Origin: Aestuariivita sp.
GTDB lineage: Bacteria > Pseudomonadota > Alphaproteobacteria > Rhodobacterales > Rhodobacteraceae
Assembly (NCBI RefSeq): GCF_021404545.1
Contig: NZ_JAAWWD010000005.1
Location: forward strand, 1-64,000
Length of the DNA stretch: 64,000 nucleotides
Reading direction: 5' to 3'
Shown piece by piece: positions 61,427 through 64,000 of this stretch. Below the pieces are notes generated by a model, which saw only the letters and a program-made list of their open reading frames with translations, was not told the origin of the DNA and ran no database searches. A program made the position numbers and the translations under genes. Every line of letters begins with the position of its first letter. Positions within the stretch are counted from its first letter, which is position 1.

Positions 61427-61444
61427 TGTAACGAAATATTGACA
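61427..61444. promoter_or_regulatory. PpsR/CrtJ site 1
   Basis: TGT-N12-ACA, the binding element of the aerobic photosynthesis-gene repressor PpsR/CrtJ. It overlaps the putative -35 hexamer, a position where binding would block the polymerase. Confidence 0.7.
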
Positions 61445-61452
61445 CATATATA

Positions 61453-61470
61453 TGTCAAGCTAAGCTTACA
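61453..61470. promoter_or_regulatory. PpsR/CrtJ site 2
   Basis: A second TGT-N12-ACA element, 8 bp after the first, overlapping the putative -10. Two sites at this spacing suit cooperative binding as known for PpsR/CrtJ at puc and bch promoters. Confidence 0.7.
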
Positions 61471-61596: not shown

Positions 61597-61755
61597 ATGT
61601 CCGATAACGATCCCGACAAAGTCTGGCCAACCGGTCTGACGCTGAGGGAAGCTGAGGAGGTTCACAGCTATCTCATTGACGGAACCCGGGTCTTCGGGGT
61701 GATTGCGCTTCTGGCGCATGTCCTCGTTGCGGCCACCACACCGTGGCTGGGATAA
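61597..61755 (+). CDS. pucB: Light-harvesting 2 beta polypeptide
   Basis: A 52-residue antenna protein. KVWPTGLTLREAEEVHSYLI (His23) and GTRVFGVIALLAHVLVAATT, then PWLG, match LH2 beta; His41 would ligate the ring bacteriochlorophyll. ATG 61597 has GGAGG 9 nt before it. It pairs with PucA, starting 10 bp downstream. Confidence 0.95.
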   Translation: MSDNDPDKVWPTGLTLREAEEVHSYLIDGTRVFGVIALLAHVLVAATTPWLG

Positions 61756-61765
61756 GGAGAGCGTC

Positions 61766-62101
61766 ATGAACAATTCGAAAATGTGGCTTGTGGTGAAGCC
61801 GACCGTTGGCGTTCCGCTGTTTCTGTCGGCAGTGGCCATCGGCTCTTTTGCTGTGCATGTGGCGGTTCTGACGAACACCTCGTGGGTGTCGGATTTCCTG
61901 TCCGGCGTGCCGATGGGGACGGGCGATCAGACTGCGGCTCTGGAACGGGATGCGGCAACTGCGCAGGCATCGTTCGATGCCCAGGCGATGGATGGTCAGG
62001 CCATTCTGGTCACGCTTCCCGATGGCACCACGGCGCGCGCGGTCATCGAACTGCCCAAGGCTTTGGCCGCGGCACAGTCCGGAACGTTGCCCGACGGGTA
62101 A
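61766..62101 (+). CDS. pucA: Light-harvesting 2 alpha polypeptide, with C-terminal extension
   Basis: A 111-residue antenna protein; usual LH2 alpha is 50-60. Residues 1-47 align without gaps: MWLVVKPTVGVPLFLSAVAI, His31 ligand in FAVHVAVLTNTSW. Positions 44-45 are Phe-Leu, where 850-nm LH2 has Tyr with Tyr or Trp. Residues 50-111 are a hydrophilic extension (TGDQTAALERDAATAQASFD, ending QSGTLPDG) probably at the periplasmic face. GGAGAG precedes the ATG. Confidence 0.93.
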   Translation: MNNSKMWLVVKPTVGVPLFLSAVAIGSFAVHVAVLTNTSWVSDFLSGVPMGTGDQTAALERDAATAQASFDAQAMDGQAILVTLPDGTTARAVIELPKALAAAQSGTLPDG

Positions 62102-62216: not shown

Positions 62217-63731
62217 ATGTTTAACTACCGACAATTTGCCTATAATCGCTTGGCGCGGATCGCGCCGCGATACCTTCCTTTTGCCGATGTCGCGACCGAG
62301 GATGTGCCGCTGTCGCGGCTTTTGCGTCTGTCGCTGTTTCAGGTCACGGTCGGCATGGCGCTTGTGTTGATGGTGGGTACGCTCAACCGTGTGATGATCG
62401 TCGAACTGAATGTCCCGGCCTCTTTGGTGGCGGGGATGATCGCGCTGCCTTTGGTCTTTGCGCCATTTCGCGCGCTGATCGGCTTCAAGTCCGATACCTT
62501 TACATCTGCGCTGGGCTGGCGACGGGTGCCGTTCATCTGGAAGGGCTCGATGTGGCAGTTCGGCGGCTTTGCCATCATGCCCTTTGCCCTTCTGGTGCTC
62601 TCGGGCTATGGCGAGGCGGTGGATGCGCCGCGCTGGCTGGGTCTGGGATCGGCCGCGCTGTCGTTCCTGCTGGTGGGGGCGGGCATGCACACAGTGCAGA
62701 CCGTGGGCCTTGCGCTGGCCACCGATCTGGTGCCCGAAGAAGATCAGCCCAAGGTCGTGGGACTGATGTATGTGATGCTCCTTTTGGGGATGGTCGTGTC
62801 GGCCTTCGTCTTCGGAGCCTTGTTGGAGAATTACACGCCCGGACGCCTCATTCAGGTCATCCAGGGCTGCGCGGTGGTCACGATCGTGCTCAACGCGATT
62901 GCCATGTGGCAGCAGGAGCCGCGCGACCGCGTGCGCGCTCAACAGATGCGCAACCGCACCAGCACCCCGTCCTTTGCCCAAAGCTGGCGTGGCCTGGTGC
63001 GGTACGATGGGGCGATGCGGCTGCTGGTGGTGATCGGGCTGGGCACCTTCGCCTATGGCATGGCCGATGTGCTGCTGGAACCCTATGGCGGTCAGGTCCT
63101 GGGGATGAGCGTGGCCCAGACCACGAAACTCACCGCCGTTCTGGCGGGGGGCACGCTGATCGGCTTCGCGCTGGCCTCTTACACGCTGGGGCGGGGGGCC
63201 AATCCGCTGCGCCTGGCGCGGCTGGGGGCGCTGGTGGGCGTTCCGGGCTTTGTGGCGATCGTGCTGGCGGCGCACAGCGGCGATCTGTCGATCTTTATTC
63301 TGGGCACTTTCGCGATCGGGTTCGGCGCGGGGCTTTTCAGCCATGGCACGCTGACGGCCACGATGCGCCGCGCCCCGCGCGACCAGATCGGTCTGGCGCT
63401 GGGCGCCTGGGGGGCCGTGCAGGCGACCGCGGCGGGCGTCGGCGTCGCGCTGGGCGGGATCTTGCGCGATATCGTGCTGCATCTGCCCATCGCCGAGGCT
63501 GTGGATGCCGCCACGCCCTATATCACTGTCTTTGCGCTGGAGGGGGCGGTGCTGCTGATGGCTCTGATCGCGTCGCTGCGTCTGACTGGCGCCGGGCGCG
63601 TCGCATCCGGCCCCGAAGGCACTGTATCAAATTTCGAGTTGCAGCTCGAACCTGCGAGGAGGGGTGAGGGATCACCGCAGGGTCTTAACCGACCTCACAC
63701 GCAGTCACCGCGACCACAGGAGGTAACATGA
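62217..63731 (+). CDS. pucC: LH2 assembly protein PucC
   Basis: A 504-residue MFS-like membrane protein of the PucC/LhaA (BCD) family with 12 predicted helices, needed for LH2 assembly or bacteriochlorophyll delivery. Signatures are LRLSLFQVTVGMALVLMVGT, NRVMIVELNVPASLVA, PFIWKGSMWQFGGFAIMPFA and GMADVLLEPYGGQVLGMSVA. The C-terminal 45 residues are extra, polar and partly basic. It overlaps the next gene by 4 nt (ATGA). Confidence 0.93.
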   Translation: MFNYRQFAYNRLARIAPRYLPFADVATEDVPLSRLLRLSLFQVTVGMALVLMVGTLNRVMIVELNVPASLVAGMIALPLVFAPFRALIGFKSDTFTSALGWRRVPFIWKGSMWQFGGFAIMPFALLVLSGYGEAVDAPRWLGLGSAALSFLLVGAGMHTVQTVGLALATDLVPEEDQPKVVGLMYVMLLLGMVVSAFVFGALLENYTPGRLIQVIQGCAVVTIVLNAIAMWQQEPRDRVRAQQMRNRTSTPSFAQSWRGLVRYDGAMRLLVVIGLGTFAYGMADVLLEPYGGQVLGMSVAQTTKLTAVLAGGTLIGFALASYTLGRGANPLRLARLGALVGVPGFVAIVLAAHSGDLSIFILGTFAIGFGAGLFSHGTLTATMRRAPRDQIGLALGAWGAVQATAAGVGVALGGILRDIVLHLPIAEAVDAATPYITVFALEGAVLLMALIASLRLTGAGRVASGPEGTVSNFELQLEPARRGEGSPQGLNRPHTQSPRPQEVT

Positions 63732-64000
63732 CCACAGTAATTTCACGCCTTTATGCGGATGAGGCCACCGCGCACGGGGTCGTTGACGCCTTGCGGGCCG
63801 AAGGATTTCCGCAAAACACGATCGACACGATCACACAGAAAGACGCGGACGCGATTGCCGCCACCCGGATCAATGCGGATGACGCGGCAATCTACGCCAA
63901 CCGGATGGAGGCGGGCAATGTCCTCGTCGTGGTCCGCGCGCCGCTCACGCCCTTTGGTGCCGCGCGCCGGGCCATGGCCATCGTCGACGAGGCCCAGAGC
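63728..64000 (+). CDS. Partial gene after pucC, function unknown
   Basis: The first 91 residues are visible: MTTVISRLYADEATAHGVVD, then ALRAEGFPQNTIDTITQKDA and IYANRMEAGNVLVVVRAPL. It resembles the general-stress/YflT-like ferredoxin fold, where a small alpha-beta unit is repeated. Coupled to pucC by ATGA, so it belongs to the puc operon. The rest is beyond the right edge. Confidence 0.6.
   Translation, partial: MTTVISRLYADEATAHGVVDALRAEGFPQNTIDTITQKDADAIAATRINADDAAIYANRMEAGNVLVVVRAPLTPFGAARRAMAIVDEAQS

Follow-up and report, generated by a model that had tools for sequence, protein, structure and literature searches.

The single pucBA pair of Aestuariivita sp. lies within a 64,000-nucleotide stretch of contig NZ_JAAWWD010000005.1 (the window, positions 1 to 64,000 of the contig), and its alpha subunit has phenylalanine and leucine at residues 44 and 45. 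The question raised by this locus is to which spectral class the encoded LH2 antenna belongs and where it would absorb. The preliminary description had taken Phe44-Leu45 as the signature of LH3, the blue-shifted B800-820 complex, had mentioned in second place the roseobacter LH2 that absorbs near 805 nm, and had expected a peak well below 850 nm. In the published structures the wavelength is set by the hydrogen bond donors: the comparison of nine LH2 structures in PMC9618040 associated two hydrogen bonds to the C3-acetyl groups with absorption near 850 nm, one with about 825 nm and none with about 800 nm, and its Table 1 placed the C3-acetyl bonding sites of the alpha subunit at residues 41, 44 and 45.

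The gene was identified as that of an LH2 alpha subunit from 1) the match of its product to PF00556, 2) the presence of the histidine ligand, His31, 3) the adjoining pucB and pucC genes and 4) the location of pufA elsewhere, on contig C92. The features of the locus are collected in Table 1.

Table 1. Annotated features of the puc locus, in window coordinates
Feature	Position	Strand	Evidence
pucB, LH2 beta subunit, 52 aa, H23 and H41, C-terminal TPWLG	61597..61755	+	PF00556, 43 bits; matched stretches aligned with 7ze3_B and 7pbw_BA, gap-free
pucA, LH2 alpha subunit, 111 aa	61766..62101	+	Pfam PF00556, 44.5 bits (cut-off 23); phmmer to solved LH2 alpha chains
Codons V41 S42 D43 F44 L45; Tyr, Trp and His absent at alpha 41, 44 and 45	61886..61900	+	Sequence; donor sites as given in PMC9618040, Table 1
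C-terminal extension of PucA, residues 48-111, with conserved D86-G87 and lacking Trp, Tyr and His	61907..62098	+	Conservation in 91 entries; dN < dS
pucC, PUCC-family protein (ATG start at 62217 chosen by the authors)	62217..63731	+	PF03209, 497.7 bits for 62220-63731
Next gene of the cluster, 196 aa in all, running past the window to contig C3 position 64318	63728..64000	+	ATGA overlap with the pucC stop
Two tandem TGTN12ACA sites (61427-61444, 61453-61470), putative PpsR/CrtJ-like operator	61427..61470	+	Pattern search; upstream of pucB

The translated product reads Trp40-Val41-Ser42-Asp43-Phe44-Leu45 across the region of interest. Residues 1-47 were aligned by phmmer, gap-free, with residues 1-47 of both the B800-820 complex (1ijd) and 7pbw, the Rba. 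sphaeroides LH2 of PMC9618040, and residues 1-49 were aligned in the same way with the Rps. palustris PucD-LH2 (7ze3). The solved alpha chains that were matched are just 48-71 residues long, compared with the extended PucA found here. The first two claims of the preliminary description, a gap-free fit of the first 47 residues to classical LH2 alpha chains and Phe-Leu at 44-45, were borne out; in the alignment the pair is Phe44-Leu45 in 1ijd, as in the window, and Tyr44-Tyr45 in 7pbw. Beyond Trp40 the sequence lacks Trp, Tyr and His throughout, up to residue 111. The pair is not a product of chance, since F44 is conserved at 95% and L45 at 99% in 91 distinct entries of 95-125 residues and the gene lies between pucB and pucC.

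The assignment to LH3, on the other hand, stood only in part. Phe44-Leu45 is indeed common to the window and to the LH3 of Rbl. acidophilus 7050 (1ijd), but the latter, having lost the bonds of residues 44 and 45, keeps one acetyl bond from Tyr41 (PMC9618040, with which PMC9897067 agrees), whereas the window has Val41. Phe44-Leu45 alone is not the mark of LH3, and the LH3 class was rejected because of the valine found where 1ijd and Table 1 of PMC9618040 have Tyr41. The two antennas also differ in that the LH3 of strain 7050 replaces LH2 in low light (PMC9897067), whereas the window genome has one pucBA. At positions 40-45 the alignment gives WVAKFM for PucD in 7ze3 and WYAAFL for LH3, and the W40-V41-x-x-F44-L45 of the window is nearer to PucD. 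The PucD complex, which has zero C3 bonds and peaks at 803 nm according to PMC9618040, resembles the window antenna in W40 V41, in F44, in the absence of donors at 41, 44 and 45 and in the PWL ending of the beta chain. It differs in having a multigene puc family with a gamma subunit, a 59-residue alpha chain that lacks the long tail, and Met45 in place of Leu45, the last of which counts against the analogy. Section 7 of PMC9618040 names alpha-Met-44 and Phe-45 in PucD-LH2, whereas the legend to its Fig. 3 and the 7ze3 sequence have Phe44-Met45.

With Val41 as in the 803-nm PucD-LH2, the LH3 label gives way to a closer class, the High-800 or LH4-like antennas, so that the roseobacter LH2 absorbing near 805 nm, the second suggestion of the preliminary description, proved the better match. 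The window antenna combines F44L45 with no donor at 41 (the Val41 part being our addition to the published motif), and pucBA is the only peripheral antenna pair found in the assembly. PMC12654162 assigns the LH4 type, whose one peripheral peak lies near 800 nm, to Roseobacter denitrificans, R. litoralis, Dinoroseobacter shibae, Roseicyclus mahoneyensis and Rubrimonas cliftonensis, and its Table 2 lists peaks of 806 nm for R. litoralis, 804 nm for D. shibae and 806 nm for R. mahoneyensis. Section 3.4.2 of that paper names a common F44L45 motif, citing Niedzwiedzki 2011 on R. denitrificans, and leaves unspecified in that section the strains whose sequences were checked. The complex of R. denitrificans is described in PMC5313593 as an LH2 in which B800 and B850 overlap at 800 nm, and PMC5783997 and PMC9618040 cite Duquesne 2011 for its High-800 LH2. 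It shares with the window the same F44L45 (according to PMC12654162), the status of sole peripheral antenna and the roseobacter lineage. F44L45 in such antennas is already in print, and the window antenna is the ordinary state for its lineage.

We consider it probable that pucBA encodes a High-800 (LH4-like, PucD-like) LH2 that would absorb beside LH1. Both bacteriochlorophylls of each alpha-beta pair would be held by histidine as normal, while their C3 acetyls, left unbonded by residues 41, 44 and 45 of the alpha chain, would not be fixed in the plane of the ring, which would raise the site energies. With the 850-nm band thereby moved up to or beside the 800-nm band, one peak, single or fused, would be expected at about 800-815 nm. 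PMC13209277 gives an LH1 band at 866 nm and was uninformative on LH2 residues. The earlier expectation of a peak well below 850 nm was sound in direction, given the absent donors, the lack of a second pucA in the assembly and the published structure-spectrum pairs, the peak itself being a prediction. A firm value of 805 nm is opposed by the Rba. sphaeroides LH2 at 826 nm described next and by Limnohabitans planktonicus, listed at 799/813 nm in PMC12654162, if its PucA resembles the chains of eight Burkholderiales-type loci that also have V41, F44 and L45; donorless 41, 44 and 45 may then not always mean 805 nm.

The residual red shift is the point on which a second reading turns. In Rba. sphaeroides LH2, alpha-Ser27 bonds the 13-1 keto group of the beta-B850 pigment, and the complex deprived of the Tyr44 and Tyr45 bonds, with Ser27 kept, absorbs at 826 nm (PMC9618040). 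Window PucA has Ser27 in common with this protein, differing from it at 44 and 45 as described, and 7pbw was the best-scoring solved chain for the PucA core. If the contact of Ser27 with the 13-1 keto, or one from Trp40 or beta-Trp50, kept part of the red shift, the complex would have LH3-like maxima near 800 and 820-826 nm, which we regard as unlikely although it is the main rival reading. Ser27 occurs in all 107 of the proteins with Phe44-Leu45 in the set described below, but also in 30 of the 31 without it, so that it does not separate the classes; its loss alone left the B850 of Rba. sphaeroides unaffected (PMC9618040), the bond that the 7050 LH3 retains is removed by Val41, and the LH4-type roseobacters in PMC12654162 peak at 804-806 nm. 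As a cause of the blue shift, Ser27 was rejected on the same 107 of 107 and 30 of 31 counts. Duquesne 2011, on the High-800 LH2, reportedly implicates a serine together with the 13-1 carbonyl.

Donors could also lie outside the three alpha sites. A near-normal band at 835-855 nm would be expected if beta-Trp50, which is present in PucB, or polar residues of the long tail bonded the acetyls, and the beta-chain tryptophan is a donor in Phs. molischianum LH2 and a weak one in Mch. purpuratum LH2 (PMC9618040). However, PucB ends in PWLG, and the beta tryptophan need not be a donor since the PWL ending is shared with the 803-nm PucD complex, in which that bond is absent (PMC9618040), and residues 48-111 of PucA contain no Trp, Tyr or His. 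We therefore hold this reading to be improbable.

The genome was searched for other antenna genes. The assembly (4.82 Mb, 99.96% complete, 109 contigs) gave four PF00556 matches, pucB and pucA in the window and pufB and pufA on contig C92, where pufBA are followed by two reaction-centre genes (Photo_RC matches, assigned as pufL and pufM by their order). A second pucA or a donor-bearing alpha chain was not found in this assembly, in a gap of which a copy could lie, and the plasmid records searched for PucA gave no match. PucB passes the NCBIfam equivalog NF040862, "LH1 beta" (pufB_517_ASD), at 65.2 compared with a cut-off of 61, despite its pucBAC setting, and an LH1-beta name taken from this model would mislead annotation. 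The 196-residue open reading frame downstream of pucC has no Pfam or NCBIfam family, as searched with its first 91 residues, those inside the window; the same residues matched 29 of the 69 loci L005-L073 at E 1e-5 or better, L053 being the one match on the opposite strand.

An antenna that is no longer made or is decaying would deprive the residue of spectral meaning. Some genomes gave no match to the puc genes: G277, the only other genome of the same genus compared, has pufBA and no pucBA match, which may point to a loss or gain of LH2 inside the genus of the window, and 5 of the 19 genomes of genus g267 have no PucA match. Here, however, pucBAC is intact and preceded by the tandem sites, TGTN12ACA being what we take to be the PpsR site. 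The total of such sites in the window is unremarkable (11 matches compared with 7.5 expected, a number reached in 10 of 100 shuffles), and only the tandem pair upstream of pucB stands out. Moreover, dN was below dS in comparisons with L005, L006 and L063, both in the core (dN 0.08-0.11, dS 1.5-1.8) and in the tail (dN 0.22-0.32, dS 1.2-3.8, the largest dS being saturated). Decay is thus highly improbable.

The tail is a conserved element in its own right. D86 and G87, part of an LPDGTTA-like motif, are retained at 98% and 99% in the 91 entries of 95-125 residues, one of which (L125) carries an Ala/Glu-rich tail of a different kind. The AlphaFold2 model of PucA has a low-confidence hairpin (78-83/89-94), and with a mean pLDDT of 60.6 and a pTM of 0.27 the prediction is too weak to base a fold search on. 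Packing or assembly as the function of the tail would be conjecture.

The distribution of the motif was surveyed in a pool of 138 distinct full-length PucA-like proteins. Phe44-Leu45 was found in 107, all of which also have V41, and not in the other 31, a share that is probably an overestimate because the set was found in part with contig scan patterns derived from window PucA, including NTSWVSDF, which covers the motif and favours such proteins. The genome-search sets were obtained without that pattern, having been drawn by similarity to P0001 or L114. By raw position, 29 of the 31 have Tyr41, Tyr44 or Trp, Tyr or His at 45; the other two, L199 and L200, have a two-residue insertion and read W-Y-x-P-Y-V once anchored on their Trp. 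In genus g267, probably Roseobacter, PucA was matched in 14 of 19 genomes and all 14 read WV[SA]DFL. Fragments from L058 (2), L119 (2) and L073 (1) were dropped before counting, and four very weak places (G034, G152, G008 and G374; E 1.7e-4 to 9.6e-4) together with G639 stand outside the counts, while the second weak piece of G296 falls inside L119. The pucA of L058 and L119 keeps the family frame up to about residue 21 and then leaves it, ending at 34, which reflects a broken gene or a sequencing error.

Among the long-form roseobacter-type PucA proteins (95-125 residues, PucC downstream), Tyr44 occurs in 11 of 107 rows: L039, L149 (=L114), L150 (=L105), L151 (=L111), L162, L170, L172, L174, L179, L199 and L200. 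Nine of these have WYxxYL or WYxxYV, and so also Tyr41, and two, L172 and L174, have WVSDYL; L131, which reads Tyr44-Trp45, is not among the long-form rows. Trees were built from PucC, which does not contain the trait; they were quick, with many open forks, and omit nine entries that lack a downstream PucC, all Tyr44 proteins of short- or Ala/Glu-tailed types. The final tree was confined to 104 of the 107 long-form rows, three being omitted for long or suspect branches. The Tyr44/Phe44 label required 10 changes on the PucC tree, 8 of them forced by well-supported branches, and a single clade of the 11 Tyr44 rows was rejected on the 104 rows (AU p 2.8e-9), as a single clade of the first four had been in an earlier test on 108 rows (p 1.2e-5). 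Tyr44 clustered no more than shuffled labels on the 104-row tree (171 of 500 were as low), a result consistent with scattered origins but also with pucA-pucC recombination. Both states occur within four genera, with one PucA match per genome, Tyr44 being found in 1 of 2 genomes of g236, 1 of 7 of g241, 2 of 4 of g369 and 2 of 7 of g378. The codons of the block are clearly different in L150, while L149, L151 and L039 share more, and part of the spread of Tyr44 may be exchange of short segments, not repeated mutation.

There is about an even chance that PucA position 44, in many cases jointly with 41, has served repeatedly as a spectral switch in roseobacters, Tyr44 having been regained some ten times from Phe44/Val41 (a direction taken from the Phe44 majority), even between species of one genus. 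Congeners with one pucA each would then differ in their LH2 band, at about 805 compared with about 825-850 nm. A within-genus difference of the expected type is seen in Table 2 of PMC12654162, where R. mahoneyensis is given at 806 nm and Roseicyclus elongatum at 802 nm plus a shoulder at 850, a comparison of spectra that carries no tie to sequence. Such a switch was not described among the literature matches listed for Tyr41 and aerobic phototrophs, which is weak evidence of novelty.

For the window itself, the analysis corrects the class of the antenna from LH3 to High-800/LH4-like and supplies a wavelength prediction that can be tested. Related species with one PucA match each, carrying either Phe44 or Tyr44, form a natural series that could show whether donors at 41 and 44 suffice to take the band from 805 nm to 825-850 nm in a native setting, and also why the blue shift of the Rba. 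sphaeroides double mutant ends at 826 nm.
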